Of a stretch of DNA of 49,648 bases, positions 19,731 through 27,305 are shown one piece after another. A program made the position numbers and the translations under genes. Every line of letters begins with the position of its first letter. Within the stretch, counting starts at the first letter, position 1. The stretch is from Candidatus Glomeribacter gigasporarum BEG34 (lineage in GTDB: Bacteria; Pseudomonadota; Gammaproteobacteria; Burkholderiales; Burkholderiaceae), in the NCBI RefSeq assembly GCF_000227585.1, contig NZ_CAFB01000039.1, positions 57,261-106,908 of the forward strand, given 5' to 3'. Below the pieces are notes generated by a model. It saw only the letters and a program-made list of their open reading frames with translations. It was not told the DNA's origin and did no database searches.

Positions 19731-20040
19731 TCGGCGAATCCGGCGCGCCTCAGTATCGAACGCCAGAAGAACAAGCGGCCACGCAAGAACGTCAGGAGAA
19801 GGCGGATCGAGAGCGCAACGCAATACGATCTGGTTTAGATTTTGGAATGAGCGATAGTGGTGGAATGTTGTCCAGGGCCGAGCGCGTCGAAACACAAGCG
19901 AACGCCGCTCGAGATCCAGCAGGGGCGCTTGCGGTCACGCAACAGGGTAGGGCAACTCCATTGATCCCTGCTCTGGCTCAATCGCAAGAAGATCAAAATA
20001 AGCAAATACGGAAGGAACAGTTCCTGCGCATGAGCGATAC
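19731..20040 (+). pseudogene. trbI: TrbI (VirB10-like) fragment, middle part
   Basis: Reads LGESGAPQYRTPEEQAATQE, RQEKADRERNAIRSGLDFG, then QSQEDQNKQIRKEQFLRMSD up to the IS66 insertion. These are the proline/glutamine-rich linker residues of IncP TrbI, the inner-membrane to outer-membrane bridge of the conjugation channel. The N-terminal cytoplasmic and membrane part is gone, replaced by the antisense binding-protein fragment. The 8-bp sequence at 20033-20040 is duplicated after the IS; joining the two parts restores the frame exactly (MSDTAPKTYLKELKQPPLSP). Confidence 0.85.
20033..20040. repeat. IS66 target-site duplication, left copy (AGCGATAC)
   Basis: AGCGATAC is repeated at 22875-22882 directly outside the two IS66 ends. 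An 8-bp duplication is the known IS66-family signature. Confidence 0.92.
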
Positions 20041-20122
20041 GTAAGCGCTCAATTTTCTGCACCTGGCGCATTGCAGGGTAGAAGCGGAGTATGGGTGTCC
20101 ACCCAATTGACAGTGGACACCC
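20041..20122. repeat. IS66 left end: terminal repeat plus subterminal hairpin
   Basis: The long terminal repeat (20041-20102) ends in the first arm of a hairpin: GGGTGTCCAC (20093-20102) pairs with GTGGACACCC (20113-20122) around a 10-nt loop, seven bases before the tnpA start. It could bind transposase and shape tnpA expression. Confidence 0.8.
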
Positions 20123-20128
20123 TAAGAC

Positions 20129-20602
20129 ATGGATGAATCGGTATGTGATGGACTGCCAATAATCAGAGTGAAGCGAGATGGCAGTCGGATATTTGATCCG
20201 CAAGCGAAGAGCCGGCTGGTTGAAGCGTGCTTGCAGCCGGGCGTGTCGATAGCTAGCCTAGCGCTTTCGCATGGAGTGAACGCAAACCTGTTGCATAAAT
20301 GGATTAGGCGAGACCGGCGAGCGAGAGAGAAGGGCGTCATGAAGGACGGGGCAGAGAAACTCTCGGCGTTTGTACCGGTCATTCAGAACAAAAGCGCTCC
20401 CGCAATAAGAGAGCGGCCTGCTTGTATGCCTGCCCTGAGCCAGTCCACTCGCAAATGGCCTGATCCTGCGAAGCCCTCCCGGCTCAATGCCTATCTGCCC
20501 AATGGCGTGAGACTGACCCTTGAGTGCCTGGGTCAGGACGCGGAGTTGGTCTGTGCGATGATTGAAACGTTGGGGCGCGGCGATGTTTCATCTGGCCGTT
20601 GA
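20129..20602 (+). CDS. tnpA: IS66 TnpA (helix-turn-helix accessory protein)
   Basis: 157 aa. N-terminal HTH of the transposase-8 type: RIFDPQAKSRLVEACLQPGV, SIASLALSHGVNANLLHKWI. The C-terminus has LNAYLPNGVRLTLEC. IS66 TnpA is needed with TnpB and TnpC for transposition and probably binds the ends. Its stop lies inside the start of tnpB (20583), suggesting coupled translation. Confidence 0.92.
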   Translation: MDESVCDGLPIIRVKRDGSRIFDPQAKSRLVEACLQPGVSIASLALSHGVNANLLHKWIRRDRRAREKGVMKDGAEKLSAFVPVIQNKSAPAIRERPACMPALSQSTRKWPDPAKPSRLNAYLPNGVRLTLECLGQDAELVCAMIETLGRGDVSSGR

Positions 20603-20933
20603 TCTGCAAGTGTATTTGCACCGTGAGGCTGTGGATTTTCGCAAAGGCATTAATGGGCTCGCTGCGCTGGTTGAGCAAAGTTTGCAACGGGATCCATTTG
20701 CGCGCGCGGTTTACGCATTCAGCAATCGCCGGCGGGATCGCGTGAAGTTATTGCTTTGGGATCGCAATGGTTTTTGGTTGCTGACGAAACGGCTCGAAGC
20801 AGATCGCTTCATGTGGCCGCGCCAGCAAGCTGTCCTGGTGCTGACGATTGAGCAACTGCACTGGCTGCTGGAGGGAATCGACATTGAAGCGATGCGACGA
20901 CATCCCTGGCGCGCCTATCGGCGTGTGAGCTAA
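20583..20933 (+). CDS. tnpB: IS66 TnpB (Orf2-like accessory protein)
   Basis: 116 aa from ATG 20583, overlapping tnpA. Contains VYLHREAVDFRKGINGLAAL, RDRVKLLLWDRNGFWLLTKR and LTIEQLHWLLEGID, the conserved blocks of the IS66 Orf2 family. Normal length. Required for transposition in characterised IS66 elements, with unclear biochemistry. Confidence 0.93.
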   Translation: MFHLAVDLQVYLHREAVDFRKGINGLAALVEQSLQRDPFARAVYAFSNRRRDRVKLLLWDRNGFWLLTKRLEADRFMWPRQQAVLVLTIEQLHWLLEGIDIEAMRRHPWRAYRRVS

Positions 20934-21007
20934 ACAGGTCAAGCGGTTCGCGGTGCGACCTGTCTCCTCTGCTGGATAAGCGGCGCAGATGAGTTATCGT
21001 AAGCGGT

Positions 21008-22654
21008 ATGAATGCTTACGCTTGTTTTCCTGATTTACCGTCACCGGTTCAGCGTTATATCCGCACACTTGAAGCGGACAAAGAAGCGCTCGAAGCGGAC
21101 AGGGCAGCGCTCGAAGCGCGCGCGGCGGTGGCGGCGCGGCGCATTGCCGAGTTAAGCGAGCGGGTGCGTTATCTCGAAGAGCAATTCCGGCTTGCGCAAC
21201 TGAAGCGCTATGCGCCGCGGAGCGAGAAGTCCCGCGAGCGCGTGTTCAACGAAGCCGAGCACGAAGCCAAAGCGGATCCGGGCACAGACGAGAGGACGGT
21301 TCCCCTGCTGGACACGGGTCTGCCGCAAGAGGCGCCGCGCTCACCCGAACCCCCGCGGGGCCGGCGCGCGCTGCCCGCAGAACTGCCGCGCCAGCGGATT
21401 GAATACGATCTTCCCGACGCACAGAAATGCTGCCCGCACTGTCAGCGCATGATGCACCGCATCGGCGAAGACATCAGCGAGCAGTTGCATATACCGCCCC
21501 GCCAGGTGTGGGTATGGCAACACGTGCGCTTCAAATACGGCTGCCGACACTGCGAACGTCATGAGATCCGCGCACCCGTGGTGCGTGCCGAGATGCCTGC
21601 GCAGCCGCTGCCTGGCAGCGTGGCCAGTGCGGCGACGATTGCCACGGTGATGACGAGTAAATATGCCGATGGCTTGCCATTATATCGAATGGAACAGGTA
21701 TTCCATCGCGCAGGCATTCAGATCGGGCGCGGCACGATGGGACACTGGCTCATTGGCGCGAGTCAACGCCATCTGCAGCGTTTGTATGACGCGATGCATC
21801 ACGTGCTCCTCACACAGCCTCTAATCCACGGCGACGAAACCACCCTGCAGGTCTTGCACGAAGCCGGTCGGCACGCCCAGAGCAAAAGCTACATGTGGGC
21901 TTATCGGAGCGCCGAACCCAGCGCTGAACCGGTTGTCCTGTTTGACTATCAACTCTCACGCGCACAACATCATCCGCAGGCGTTTCTGAACGGGTATACG
22001 GGCAAACTGATCAGTGACGGCTACCTCGCGTGGCGATCTCTTCAAGGCGTGACCCACTTCGGTTGCTGGGCCCATGCCAGACGCCGCTTTGACGAAGCGC
22101 TCAAGGCTTCTCCCCAAAAAGACGGGCGCGCCGAGCAAGCGCTCACGTTCATTCGCCGGCTATACAAAGTCGAAGCCCTGGCGCGGGATAGGCAGGGTCA
22201 CCCTGAGCTCTTGTACCGGTGGCGACAGCAGCACAGTGCGCCGGTGCTCACCGCTTTCAAGGCTTGGCTCGACGAACAGGCCCAGCACGTCTTACCCAAA
22301 AGCTTGCTTGGCAAAGCCATTGGCTACACCCGCGAGCAGTGGATTTACCTGAGCCGCTATGCGGAAGATGGCCATGCCCCCATCGATAATAACCTCATTG
22401 AGCGGGATATTCGTCCTTTTTGCACCGGCCGGAAAAACTGGCTGTTTAGCGATACGGCCGCGGGCGCGCGCGCCAGCGCGGTGATCTATAGCCTCATGCT
22501 CACCTGCCGTGCTTGTCAGGTCAAACCTTGGGACTACCTCAACGAAGTGCTCACCGAGCTCCCCAAACGCCCGGACGACGCTGAGGTGAATGACCTGCTC
22601 CCCTGGCATTTCGCCCAACGGCAGCCCGTTACAAAAAAGCCCCCTTCCGGATAG
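21008..22654 (+). CDS. tnpC: IS66 TnpC transposase
   Basis: 548 aa DDE transposase. An N-terminal coiled coil (about 15-65) with internal repeats EADKEALEADRAALEARAA, an HTH and Zn-type region (CCPHCQRMM, GCRHCERHE), then the catalytic core: LIHGDETTLQVL with the first Asp, SDGYLAWRSLQGVTHFGCWA with the second, and DNNLIERDIRPFCTGRKNWL with the Glu. It is complete, so this IS66 copy may be active. Confidence 0.95.
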   Translation: MNAYACFPDLPSPVQRYIRTLEADKEALEADRAALEARAAVAARRIAELSERVRYLEEQFRLAQLKRYAPRSEKSRERVFNEAEHEAKADPGTDERTVPLLDTGLPQEAPRSPEPPRGRRALPAELPRQRIEYDLPDAQKCCPHCQRMMHRIGEDISEQLHIPPRQVWVWQHVRFKYGCRHCERHEIRAPVVRAEMPAQPLPGSVASAATIATVMTSKYADGLPLYRMEQVFHRAGIQIGRGTMGHWLIGASQRHLQRLYDAMHHVLLTQPLIHGDETTLQVLHEAGRHAQSKSYMWAYRSAEPSAEPVVLFDYQLSRAQHHPQAFLNGYTGKLISDGYLAWRSLQGVTHFGCWAHARRRFDEALKASPQKDGRAEQALTFIRRLYKVEALARDRQGHPELLYRWRQQHSAPVLTAFKAWLDEQAQHVLPKSLLGKAIGYTREQWIYLSRYAEDGHAPIDNNLIERDIRPFCTGRKNWLFSDTAAGARASAVIYSLMLTCRACQVKPWDYLNEVLTELPKRPDDAEVNDLLPWHFAQRQPVTKKPPSG

Positions 22655-22792
22655 TTCGACACCTCAACCAGCGTTGGGTTTCCTTACGATCTCTCTCCAC
22701 ACCATCGATCATCAGCCTCGCGGGGCGATCACTTTCGCCCACAACGGGTGCAGAAAATTGAGGGCTTACGCTTACGATTCTTCCTGTCTCAC

Positions 22793-22874
22793 GGTGTCCA
22801 CCTTCAATTTGGGTGGACACCCATACTCCGCCTCCAACCTGCAATAAGCGAGGTGCAGAAAATTGAGCGCTTAC
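22793..22874. repeat. IS66 right end: subterminal hairpin plus terminal repeat
   Basis: GGTGTCCACC (22793-22802) pairs with GGTGGACACC (22812-22821), then the terminal repeat continues to GAGCGCTTAC at 22874. The left end has a matching hairpin. The 138 bp between tnpC and this hairpin hold no ORF. Confidence 0.8.
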
Positions 22875-22882
22875 AGCGATAC
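22875..22882. repeat. IS66 target-site duplication, right copy (AGCGATAC)
   Basis: Second copy of the 8-bp duplication; see the left copy at 20033-20040. Confidence 0.92.
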
Positions 22883-23522
22883 GGCTCCCAAAACCTATCT
22901 CAAGGAACTGAAGCAACCGCCTCTTTCCCCTTTTGAATTGAAAGCCGGCTGGTCCATTCCGGCCGCACTGGAATGTGGATTGAATTCTGATTTACCCGGC
23001 CAAACCTGCGCGCGCGTCACCGAGAATGTTTATGACACCGCCACTGGCCGTTATTTACTGATACCACAGGGGACAAAAGTGATTGGGACCTACGATAGTC
23101 AGATCGCTTATGGACAACAGCGCATTCTGGTGGTCTGGAACCGGCTGATTTTTCCGGATGCCAGCAGTCTCAATTTGAATGGCATGCCGGGCGAAGACAA
23201 AGCGGGAAATGCCGGTTTTGATGCCCACGTCAACAATCACTATCTGAAAGTGTTTGGAAGCGCACTGCTGATGGCCGCCTTTTCCGCCGGCATTGAATTG
23301 ACACAGAAACAGAATGCAACTCTCAACGGGATGCCGACCAACTCGCAAATGATTTCCCAATCGGTCGGGCAACAACTCGGCCAAACGGGCGCGGCCTATA
23401 TTCAACGCGGAATGAACGTTCAACCGACGTTGACGCGCGCGCCAGGCTACAAATTCAATATCATCGTCACGCGCGATATGGTATTTCCCGGCGCGTATCA
23501 ACCACACGCCGCGATCCGTTGA
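22883..23522 (+). pseudogene. trbI: TrbI (VirB10-like) fragment, C-terminal part
   Basis: Resumes in frame after the IS: APKTYLKELKQPPLSPFELK, AGWSIPAALECGLNSDLPGQ, TCARVTENVYDTATGRYLLI, PQGTKVIGTYDSQIAYGQQR, VVWNRLIFPDASSLNL and the end MVFPGAYQP. This is the complete C-terminal VirB10/TrbI beta-barrel domain that forms the outer-membrane channel collar. It has no start of its own beyond a chance ATG within the IS end, so the gene is dead. No other trb genes appear in the window. Confidence 0.9.
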
Positions 23523-23584
23523 CCAAGATCAGAAGATTGCCCTGCCTCTCTAAAAAAGCGAGCGCTTTTGCTTCTGTGATTTTT

Positions 23585-23842
23585 GGAAAGCATAAGGTTT
23601 GTGTGGCATTCACGCGGCGGCCTTGAGATTATTGGAATTATAGATACCGTTGGGCATTTCGGGCTACCAGCCCTGAAAGGTTGATTGAAGGGTTCCGTCG
23701 AGGGTTCTAATCCTGCAAAAGCAGATGAGTACCGCGCTTGCTCCATTGCATCTGCTGCTTTTTGGCGGAACGCTTGCTGATAACGGCATTCACAGTGCCT
23801 CAAGGCCGCCGCGTGAATGCCACACAAATCCTTATGCTCTCC
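23585..23842 (-). mobile_element. ~260-bp palindrome-ended element, copy 1 (MITE-like)
   Basis: Two near-perfect inverted arms (23585-23627 and 23799-23842, about 43 bp, beginning GGAAAGC/GGAGAGC and containing TTTGTGTGGCATTCACGCGG) enclose a ~170-bp core. A second copy lies at 27047-27305 in the opposite orientation, with only scattered differences. Read leftward, a TTG at 23827 opens an ORF (CGIHAAALRHCECRYQQAFR, GSPKCPTVSIIPIISRPPRE) that spans the element. It has no transposase. From memory the C-terminal pattern resembles Ash/Icd-like small phage-satellite ORFs, but this is uncertain. Confidence 0.75.
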
Positions 23843-23940
23843 TTTTTCTACTTTTTATCCTTATTAAGAAAAAAACTATACTCCTAGTAACACGGATGCG
23901 ATAATATACGATCTATTTAGATTACTTGTTTTCTTTTTCA

Positions 23941-24519
23941 ATGTGTTCCAACAAAGGTACACTGGACAAATCGGCTCCGAAGGAGCGCAAGCCGTCTCTC
24001 TTGCCCTCTACCCCCTCTGCTCAAGGGCAACCGTCCGAAGCAGCGTCTCCAACACTGCGGGAGACACGCCCGCGGCTGCGCTCCGGCCAGCGGAGTGGTC
24101 GGCCCAGAACACGGCTTGAAGCATTACAGATCGTGCCGACGCGCTGCCCCATGCAGATTTACACGTATCTCAAGAGTATTGCGCCCTATCTTTATCCTTC
24201 GTTGACACAGATGTTTGAGGATATGTTGCGGCGCTTCTTCACTGAGCGTCCGTGGGAGCACGGATTACATTGGCGCCAACCCAAGTCAGCGCTGACTGTT
24301 GCAGGCAAGAACTTAGGGCAAACAGGCTGGATGCAGGTCAATATGCGCCTTCCTGAAGAACGGGTCGCACAGATACATCAAACCGCTCAAGTATGCGGCA
24401 TCAGTCACGCAGGCGTGTGTTACACCGCGCTTTTCTGGTGGGCACAATATGTGTACCCTCCGATGAAGATGATCGGAAACCCGGCATCCGCGACAAAGGC
24501 TAAAAGTCAGCCAGATTGA
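23941..24519 (+). CDS. Hypothetical protein
   Basis: 192 aa from ATG 23941 (a TTG at 23926 is possible). The N-terminal 60 residues are Ser/Pro/Arg-rich and probably disordered; the rest is globular (MQIYTYLKSIAPYLYPSLTQ, FEDMLRRFFTERPWEHGLHW, WMQVNMRLPEERVAQIHQTA, CGISHAGVCYTALFWWAQYV). The last part could be a ribbon-helix-helix-like segment (MRLPEERVAQI). No family recognised. First gene of the block between the two palindromic elements. Confidence 0.6.
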   Translation: MCSNKGTLDKSAPKERKPSLLPSTPSAQGQPSEAASPTLRETRPRLRSGQRSGRPRTRLEALQIVPTRCPMQIYTYLKSIAPYLYPSLTQMFEDMLRRFFTERPWEHGLHWRQPKSALTVAGKNLGQTGWMQVNMRLPEERVAQIHQTAQVCGISHAGVCYTALFWWAQYVYPPMKMIGNPASATKAKSQPD

Positions 24520-24548
24520 ACGTTTGACTCAAGCATCACAACCAAATT

Positions 24549-25613
24549 TTGAGTTCGCCGATGGAGCACTTTGCAGTCGATACTGACTACCAAGCCTTCT
24601 TATCCGATATCAAACAGCACTACCGCAGCGCACAGCTCAAAGCGGTTCATGCGGTGAATCAACAGATGATCCAGTTTTACTGGCATTTGGGAAAACGGAT
24701 ACTGGAGAAACAGGCGCAGGCGGCGTGGGGCGGCAAGTTTTTGGAGCAACTGTCCCAAGATTTGCGCGCTGATTTCCCCGGCACTCAAGGCTTTTCCGTC
24801 AGAAATTTGCACTACATGAGGAAGTTTGCAGCACTGTACCCTGAAATTGTGCAACAGCCTGTTGCACAATTGCCGTGGGGCCATCTTGTCGTGCTGATTG
24901 AACAAGGCAAAGACTCCGCAGCCCGCGACTGGTACGCCGCCAACGTTGTCCAGAATGGCATCTCCCGTAATGTTCTGGCGACGCAGATCGAGCAAGACCT
25001 CTATGCGCGGCAAGGAAAACAGGCGCACAAACTGACGAACTTTGCAGAACGGCTGCCTGCCCCGCAATCCGACCTTGCCTTGCAGTTGTTTAAAGACCCC
25101 TATGACTTCAGATTTTTGCCAGTGACCGAAAGCGCTGCGGAACAGGAAATCGAACAGTCTATGGTCAATCATCTCAGAAAGCTGTTGTTGGAACTCGGCA
25201 CCGGCTTTGCGTATATGGGAAACCAGTACAAGTTGACCGTGGACGGCCAGGATTTCTTCCTGGATATGCTCTTCTATCATGTCCGCTTGCGCTGTTATTT
25301 TGTGATCGAACTCAAGGCGACTGAACTGAAGCCAGAGCATGTGGGCAAACTCAATTTCTATCTGGCGGTTGTGAATGATGTGTTGCGAGCGCCTGAAGAT
25401 CATCCCAGTATCGGCCTGTTATTGTGCAGAAAGAAAAGTAAACTCGTGGCTGAATATGCATTAAAGCGTACTGATGGACCAATTGGCGTTGCGGATTACC
25501 GGCTGCTGCGTGAACTGCCTCAAGAGCTTCAGGCAATACTTCCGCCCACGGAAATATTGGAATCTAGATTGAGCCCGCCCTCTAATGACGCAGCCTTTTC
25601 AATCACAGAGTAG
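24549..25613 (+). CDS. PDDEXK nuclease family protein, YhcG/DUF1016 type
   Basis: 354 aa (TTG at 24549; ATG at 24561 is the alternative). The N-terminal domain (DUF1016_N) has VNQQMIQFYWHLGKRILEKQ and FSVRNLHYMRKFAALYPEIV, QLPWGHLVVLI. The C-terminal nuclease domain carries GNQYKLTVDGQDFFLDMLFY with Asp 239 and FVIELKATELKPEHVGKLNF with the ExK pair Glu 254/Lys 256, the PDDEXK signature. The role of the family is not settled; it is often found with restriction or mobile loci. Catalytic residues are present, so it is likely active. Confidence 0.88.
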   Translation: MSSPMEHFAVDTDYQAFLSDIKQHYRSAQLKAVHAVNQQMIQFYWHLGKRILEKQAQAAWGGKFLEQLSQDLRADFPGTQGFSVRNLHYMRKFAALYPEIVQQPVAQLPWGHLVVLIEQGKDSAARDWYAANVVQNGISRNVLATQIEQDLYARQGKQAHKLTNFAERLPAPQSDLALQLFKDPYDFRFLPVTESAAEQEIEQSMVNHLRKLLLELGTGFAYMGNQYKLTVDGQDFFLDMLFYHVRLRCYFVIELKATELKPEHVGKLNFYLAVVNDVLRAPEDHPSIGLLLCRKKSKLVAEYALKRTDGPIGVADYRLLRELPQELQAILPPTEILESRLSPPSNDAAFSITE

Positions 25614-25636
25614 CCTTTTGCCGCCCTTATTCTCGT

Positions 25637-26728
25637 ATGAACTCCTCAAAATTCTTTAATCGTCTCGAAGCGCCCGCTGAGCAGATTGTCCATTTGGACA
25701 TCCACCGCATTGAGCCGGATCCGAATCAACCTCGCACCCAGTTTTATCCCGTCGATGGCGTGATTGACCCGACGGTGATGCAAGCACTTGAAGAACTGGC
25801 CGATGATATCGATGCAAACTCACTGTTGCAGCCGATCATCGTACAAGAAGCGGGCGACAAATACCGTATCGTGGTGGGTGAGCGGCGCTGGCGCGCGTTT
25901 AAACTGAATCATGAACGCGGGCGCCCCAATTCGAGCGCCATTCCCGCGATTGTTCGACCCGACTTATCCGCAGCCCGATTACGGCTCGCGCAATTGTCCG
26001 AGAACTTGCAACGCAGCGATTTGACCGACCTTGAAGTCGCACAATTTATTCAAAGCGTACTCAAACAATATCCCGAACTGCAAAAGCAAGAACTGGCGCG
26101 GGTATTGAAAAAAAGCAACCAGTACATATCGCGTCTTCTTGCGCTGCTCAATCCGGCATGGTCAGACGTCGTCAACACGGGAATGATTGCGCACGCCTCG
26201 CTGCTTGAGAGCTTTCGGGCGCTGCCGGAACACAAACGGGAAGAATTAAAAGCGCGAGCGCGCCAGGAAGACCGGCCATTGACGATCAGTGATCTGCGCA
26301 GCGCCAAAGAAGCATGGATGCAGGACCCGAACAACGCTATCCATACGCGCCTGACCCCAGAGTTGGCCCATCAGACACAGGCGTTTATTGCCTCTGAAGC
26401 GCCGCGCGACGAATCCTACACACCCAGCGCCGCCCTTCAATCCGTTGCGCCCGTCATCCAGGATACCGGCGGTGAGGCCATCATCCCGTATAGCCCAAAA
26501 GCGATCAATCCGGCCGTTTTCGAAAAGCGCGAGACACGGTTAACCTTACAGCAACTTGAAGCGCTTTTAACGCGCAACGCGCTCCCGAACAAAAAACATC
26601 CCGTGTCACTGATGCTTCCAGCAGAAGAAATAAAACACGCCATTACCCAACTCGGAGGCACGCCTTCAGAAGATGAACGTCAGCTGCCGATGGTTCTGGC
26701 TGAGACGATCAATCGTTTATCTCGTTAA
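25637..26728 (+). CDS. Second ParB/KorB-type DNA-binding protein (orphan)
   Basis: 363 aa. ParB N-terminal nuclease-like fold: IHRIEPDPNQPRTQFYP, LEELADDIDANSLLQPIIVQ, then the CTP-binding box GERRWRAFK (81-89). Central HTH: KQELARVLKKSNQYISRLLA. C-terminal dimerisation or linker region to 363. It follows the nuclease gene by 23 nt. No ParA is adjacent; the parAB at 4163-6300 has its own ParB. It may be a KorB-like regulator or a leftover from a second plasmid. Confidence 0.9.
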   Translation: MNSSKFFNRLEAPAEQIVHLDIHRIEPDPNQPRTQFYPVDGVIDPTVMQALEELADDIDANSLLQPIIVQEAGDKYRIVVGERRWRAFKLNHERGRPNSSAIPAIVRPDLSAARLRLAQLSENLQRSDLTDLEVAQFIQSVLKQYPELQKQELARVLKKSNQYISRLLALLNPAWSDVVNTGMIAHASLLESFRALPEHKREELKARARQEDRPLTISDLRSAKEAWMQDPNNAIHTRLTPELAHQTQAFIASEAPRDESYTPSAALQSVAPVIQDTGGEAIIPYSPKAINPAVFEKRETRLTLQQLEALLTRNALPNKKHPVSLMLPAEEIKHAITQLGGTPSEDERQLPMVLAETINRLSR

Positions 26729-26747
26729 TCGAGAGCGGTTTTCACAT

Positions 26748-27046
26748 CTAACGCGTGTTCACTCTGTAAGCGTCCCCACATTCTCCGCAGCCCAGTTTCA
26801 AGCCTGGCTTTCCCCATACGTTTGTTTTACAGGTTATGCACGTGTATTTCATTCGAGTCGGTTTGCTTGTCAACGCTTCGTCTGGCGCAACAATTCCCGC
26901 CACGGGCATGTCGCGGGCTTGAGCGGCCTCTAAAACGCGCGCGGCGACATGACGCGCAGGAAATCGATCTGCCCAGGAGATTCGAAAATCCTTCGTGAGC
27001 AACTGCTCACATGCGGCCCAAAAAGCGCCGCCTTCGATTGGATAAT
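26748..27046 (-). pseudogene. SprT-like protein, C-terminal zinc-ribbon part, truncated
   Basis: Read leftward: GAFWAACEQLLTKDFRISWA, RHVAARVLEAAQARDMPVAG, then TRMKYTCITCKTNVWGKPGL and LGCGECGDAYRV, a four-Cys zinc ribbon with the WGKPGL motif common at the end of SprT-like metalloprotease-family proteins on plasmids. The N-terminal HExxH part is absent because palindromic element copy 2 (27047) replaces it. An apparent start inside the element at 27164 only makes a chimera. It converges with the ParB gene. Confidence 0.65.
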
Positions 27047-27305
27047 GGAAAGCGTAAGGATTTGTGTGGCATTCACGCGGCGGCCTTGAGGCACTGTGAA
27101 TGCCGTTATCAGCAAGCGTTTCGCCAAAAAGCAGCAGATGCAATGGAGCAAGCGCGGTACTCATTTGCTTTTGCAGGACTAGAACCCTTGATGGAACCCT
27201 TCGATCAACCTTTCAGGGCTGGTAGCCCGAAATGCCCCACGGTATCTATAAATCCAATAACCTCAAGGCCGCCGCGCGAACGCCACACAAATCCTTACGC
27301 TTTCC
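27047..27305 (+). mobile_element. ~260-bp palindrome-ended element, copy 2
   Basis: Same element as 23585-23842, inverted. Arms 27047-27090 and 27262-27305 pair over about 43 bp. A TTG at 27062 opens the same internal ORF (MEQARYSFAFAGLEPLMEPF and onward), here reading rightward to 27343. It interrupts the SprT-like gene, which shows that it can insert. Clear target duplications were not found at either copy. Confidence 0.75.

Follow-up and report, generated by a model that had tools for sequence, protein, structure and literature searches.

Two copies of a short, palindrome-ended element lie in opposite orientation within the window (the whole stretch of 49,648 nucleotides analysed here) and enclose four features (Table 1). 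They form an inverted repeat of 251 nt that is 94% complementary, far beyond chance, with 3192 nt between its arms. This confirms the sequence-only reading, made earlier from the letters of the window, that paired inverted copies with inverted arms and a common core are located 3.2 kb apart, and its statement that neither copy encodes a transposase was also correct, as no intact transposase frame is present. The ends of the element were set by reading. The arms of both copies reach 43-45 bp; those of copy 1 pair over 30 nt at 100%, a match shortened by a one-base gap, and those of copy 2 pair over 45 nt at 96%. The 3'-end arm of copy 1 is one base short compared with the other arms. Copies 1 and 2 show 15 differences in 259 aligned columns, comprising 12 transitions and 1 indel among them.

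Table 1 Features of the two copies and of the segment between them (positions in the window).
Feature	Position	Strand	Remarks
Copy 1, MITE-like element	23585..23842	-	258 bp; transposase relic encoded by the - strand
Copy 1, transposase 3'-end arm	23585..23627	-	Terminal repeat and relic codons LKAAA plus stop
Copy 1, core	23628..23798	-	Relic of transposase C-terminal codons; frameshift and stop
Copy 1, opposite arm	23799..23842	+	Apparently likewise of 3'-end type
Segment between copies	23843..27046	.	Hypothetical gene, YhcG/DUF1016 gene, ParB gene, SprT fragment
SprT-like gene, C-terminal fragment	26748..27046	-	Ends at copy 2
Copy 2, MITE-like element	27047..27305	+	259 bp; opposite in orientation to copy 1
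Copy 2, arm 5' of transposase relic	27047..27091	+	Apparently of 3'-end type
Copy 2, core	27092..27260	+	Transposase C-terminal relic; frameshift and stop as in copy 1
Copy 2, true 3'-end arm	27261..27305	-	Stop codon of the relic altered here

The SprT-like fragment comprises the last 98 codons and aligns, at 68% identity and over 98% of the query, with a 237-aa protein of a Xanthomonas plasmid, the gene of which is convergent with parB as in the window. The missing N-terminal part had no convincing match elsewhere in the window (next best E 0.11) and a genome search, run with no positive control, did not find it either; the best SprT match within the 12 kb examined of the same-genus genome G001 had an E of 0.97. 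The earlier claim that one copy has cut this gene holds in part, in that the fragment ends at copy 2, and the other part of the gene was not found in the window or genome. The insertion may have cut the gene, or it may equally have landed at an existing break.

Other features of the neighbourhood were also observed. The YhcG/DUF1016 nuclease-like gene (24549-25613) adjoins parB; at the same place in the same-genus relative (L052, 3312-4835), reading of the frames indicates a VapC-like gene followed up by a parA-like region, the latter seemingly broken by an in-frame stop. An IS66-family element (20033-22883, transposase 21008-22654) interrupts trbI and has a 9-base direct repeat at its edges, and the trbI-like frame in the same-genus relative is uninterrupted with 474 aa.

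The two copies could be regarded as bounding a composite or fold-back unit by which the enclosed 3.2 kb are moved or inverted, because the copies are inverted and have matching ends, homologous recombination could in principle invert the segment, and the YhcG gene and the SprT fragment are unmatched in the same-genus relative. In this relative (G001), however, no match to the element was found, and its contig C458 is collinear with the window in the same orientation (trbI, hypothetical gene, ParB, small gene, KfrB-type genes). Of the four enclosed features, the hypothetical and ParB genes thus keep their order and orientation where the element is absent, as do the genes outside; accordingly, the pair bounds neither a composite unit nor an inversion. 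The 15 changes between the copies also speak against recent exchange. A composite unit, which the sequence-only reading had proposed, is therefore very improbable. The same contig gave a partial answer to the proposed check for empty sites: a collinear region free of the element exists, and the exact pre-insertion sites could not be fixed to the base, as the intergenic DNA did not align to that of the relative.

Transposase relic in the core

The core matched DNA at the 3' ends of plasmid-borne ISKra4-family transposase genes from rhizobia, Microvirga, Azospirillum, and others, and many of these plasmid matches fall where nothing is annotated. It corresponds to the last ~63 of 466 transposase codons, ~86% of the gene being missing from the element, and a frameshift and a stop are common to copies 1 and 2. 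The translation of the copies reads TVNAVISKR(F/S)AKKQQMQWSKRGTHLLLQ and, after the frameshift, RTLDGTL(R/Q)STFQGW-stop-PEM; in the transposase frames of both copies, TVNAVISKRFAKKQQMQWSKRGTHLLLQ (S for F in copy 1) is followed by the frame shift and by W-stop-PEM on to LKAAA. The distance of the relic stop codon from the end is the same as that in the reference locus L010.

At E 0.001, the only matches of the NF033572 profile in the genome were to the two full copies, in both cases at positions 385-412 of 422; a truncated third copy described below was not reported by it. The relic scores were 23.3 and 19.5 bits over 28 positions, against a whole-protein cut-off of 205, and the transposase proteins of two relatives scored 344.7 and 339.3 bits. 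As these relatives pass the cut-off and the relic itself is below it, the element was assigned to the ISKra4 family through the relatives. According to an excerpt of Guerillot et al. (PMC3942029), one branch of the ISAzba1 group carries a pRiA4 ORF3-like gene. A pRiA4b ORF-3 passenger is annotated beside the transposase in most of the relatives, Phyllobacterium L031 excepted, and is absent from the element. The element therefore appears to be the remnant of an ISKra4-family transposon and most closely resembles those members of the ISAzba1 group that carry pRiA4b ORF3; the group was taken from the passenger, not from a tree. In 298 other family genomes, among the matches listed and with at most two candidates per genome scored, the element matched in 1, over 67 bp of the core, at a locus that encodes a relative, with 45% identity, of the L010 transposase. 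An intact parent with the same ends was not found among the matches listed from these genomes.

The sequence-only reading had considered the internal ORF retained in both copies to be odd. A frame is indeed open across both copies, but it differs from the transposase frame; it is an out-of-frame reading of the transposase 3' end with no sign of selection. This open frame and the long complementary arms could be taken to mean that the element encodes a small protein or a structured RNA that is being kept. However, when the element was shuffled 5000 times by mononucleotides, an all-open frame arose in 563 cases, and the differences between the copies in the open frame were 5 silent and 9 replacing, with an expected silent fraction of 0.22; these results gave no support for a coding ORF. 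As for RNA, the one Rfam match, over copy 1, scored 26.4 bits against a threshold of 245 and was put down to the palindrome. Furthermore, no promoter-like site was detected in 23400-24200, where the scan covered the region of copy 1. Such a product is thus hardly credible, and the analysis strikes a possible small gene, as well as a possible composite transposon, off the list.

Arms and terminal repeats

The outer 24 bp of the element correspond to the terminal repeat of the ISAzba1-type group. Those of the 5' arm of copy 1 are identical to a terminus in Rhizobium freirei (L025), and the outer 24 bp are close to the ends of complete elements such as L063 and L033, both transposases of which pass the family cut-off. 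The ends thus match those of autonomous elements (the termini of L010, L012, L033, and L063, with the lone L025 terminus), the exact parent not being among them. The exact terminal-repeat pattern was found in five genome contigs, and only that of Rhizobium freirei looks like a real terminus; from the flanks, the matches in two Marinobacter, Dyadobacter, and Pirellula were taken as chance or coding. None of the five contigs had a transposase match to L010. The Rhizobium freirei terminus (L025, 5435-5458) is a lone one beside a frame that, named by eye, resembles pRiA4b ORF-3, and a transposase match was not found in the 8 kb of this locus that were examined. In viral contigs, nothing was matched by the ORF protein patterns or the terminal-repeat pattern.

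For comparison, 19 plasmid loci were chosen, not at random, from two match lists (27 and 47 records), and their ends were sought with up to 5 mismatches. Paired ends were obtained at 10 of the 19 loci, one end-like match at 6, and none at 3; one of the single-end matches lies about 1 kb from the transposase tail. As the query was the 3' end, a bias towards keeping this end is not claimed. The ten elements compared were L009, L010, L012, L032, L033, L054, L055, L058, L059, and L063, among which L009 and L058 are deletion derivatives themselves.

In all ten reference elements, 21-24 of the first 24 positions are the same at both ends; among the following 21 positions, this number falls to 2-10. 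In contrast, positions 25-45 of the arms of our element agree at 20/21 and 19/21 in the two copies, and the transposase C-terminus and its stop are encoded in this inner stretch of the arm. Because the arms agree to ~45 bp including these codons, compared with 24 bp in the references, both ends of the element seem to derive from the 3' (right) end of the parent. The inner arms agreed with the reference 3' ends at a mean of 9.3-10.1 of 21 positions and with the 5' ends at 5.8-6.7, a modest difference by ungapped count. Judging from these comparisons, the left arm would most simply be an inverted copy of the 3' end. The motif GAGGC stands at the same codons in three of the four relatives shown, and the fourth, L063, has GAAGC.

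MITEs usually arise by internal deletion, and the element might accordingly be an ordinary product of it, its parent having had inverted repeats of ~45 bp and its left arm being the true 5' end. A deletion derivative from the same transposon group, 436 bp long and similar at its 5' end to L010 and L055, is present on Mesorhizobium pMLa. Inverted repeats of up to 39 bp are given for the wider class in an excerpt of PMC3942029. This origin is opposed by the loss of agreement beyond position 24 in every reference element and by the coding of the transposase C-terminus in the inner arm, and we regard it as unlikely, though less so than any other alternative considered here.

If the reading of two right ends is right, the element offers a natural test case for whether unlike ends on the left and right are required by these transposases, and it shows another way in which MITEs are born. 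The chances seem about even that an element with two right ends was still mobile. This would imply that a substrate with right ends on both sides is acceptable to an ISAzba1-group transposase and that, besides internal deletion, the duplication of a single end in inverted orientation can give rise to MITEs. In a search of the literature on ISKra4/ISAzba1 elements and MITEs at the level of search records, no account of this element, or of any MITE with two right ends, was recognised.

Copy distribution and mobility

The proposed search of the host genome (1.73 Mb, 124 contigs) for more copies yielded one, a partial copy at C81:1555-1692. When up to 3 mismatches were allowed, a 19-base pattern of the ends occurred at four places in the genome, all inside the three copies. 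The third copy has flanks unrelated to those of copies 1 and 2 and the same end base, and although truncated, it has the same bases as these at the position of the relic stop. Hence, the element is present in two full copies and one truncated copy at unrelated sites. It is also short, with terminal inverted repeats and without a transposase, as MITEs are. The proposed search for a transposase with matching ends was unsuccessful: an intact ISKra4-family transposase was not found in the assembly (95% complete) with the NF033572 profile.

Target-site duplication is usual, not universal, in MITEs, and in this respect copies 1 and 2 fall short, as none was found at either beyond a T-run at copy 1. 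To our knowledge, the ISAzba1 group is listed in ISfinder without target duplication. Likewise, none of the ten reference elements with paired ends had a target duplication of at least 7 bp, which contrasts with the 8 or 9 bp stated for this transposase class in an excerpt of PMC3942029.

The lack of target duplication and the nearness of copies 1 and 2 would be compatible with a single duplication by recombination instead of transposition, an origin that the sequence-only reading would have favoured had copies been found only here. However, the third copy sits on another contig, and all three copies cease to be similar at one and the same terminal base, with differing flanks and no DNA in common beyond the terminal GGA/TCC; we thus consider this origin improbable. 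These common ends of IS-family type, together with the element-free relative, support the earlier view that the element is a non-autonomous, palindrome-ended mobile element.

Taken together, these findings make it highly probable that the copies represent a non-autonomous MITE-like element from an ISAzba1-type transposon of the ISKra4 family, which carries a copy of the 3' end in place of the 5' end, was moved in trans, and is now stranded. The parent would have lost its passenger gene and most of the transposase gene, and its 5' end would have given way to a second, inverted 3' end, with the short GAGGC match as the probable junction. As the frameshift and stop are present in both full copies, copying came after the decay. 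A transposase acting in trans, of which none was found in today's assembly, would then have moved the shortened element at least once; we infer this movement after decay, and with it the mobility of a structure with two right ends, from the lesions common to the copies, their sharp ends, and their differing flanks. Copy 2 would have landed in or beside the SprT-like gene of a plasmid. The elements now appear to be stranded and diverging, with no host function indicated. For the most part, the copies are ordinary debris of mobile DNA, and what is less usual about them is that both ends appear to be of 3' type.

Comparison with known systems

The closest complete relatives are the pRiA4b ORF-3 transposons of the ISAzba1 group, for example, L063 of Rhizobium rhizogenes K84 pAtK84c (2537 bp), the membership of which in the group is presumed from the passenger, not from a tree. 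Like our element, they have a terminal repeat of ~24 bp and a stop codon near the terminus, and target duplication was not seen; the transposase 3' end of L063 is 94.8% identical to the element over 58 bp. The element differs from them in lacking the passenger and ~86% of the transposase and in arms that agree to ~45 bp.

The derivative in Mesorhizobium japonicum pMLa (L009, 2937-3372) is unannotated and has two ends. It resembles our element in being short, in having two terminal repeats without a transposase between them, and in keeping the transposase 3' end. Unlike our element, it has a 5' end similar to those of complete elements and its deletion point at codon ~375, and it therefore probably arose by an independent event. 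L058 of Rhizobium sp. 007 (1232 bp) also has a 5' end like that of complete elements, and L009 and L058 look like ordinary internal deletions. Finally, the element shares with the bacterial MITEs described in an excerpt of PMC10969869 its small size, inverted ends, non-autonomous nature, and presence in more than one copy; it differs from them in that no target duplication was seen, in its three copies only, and in its two ends, both apparently of 3' type.
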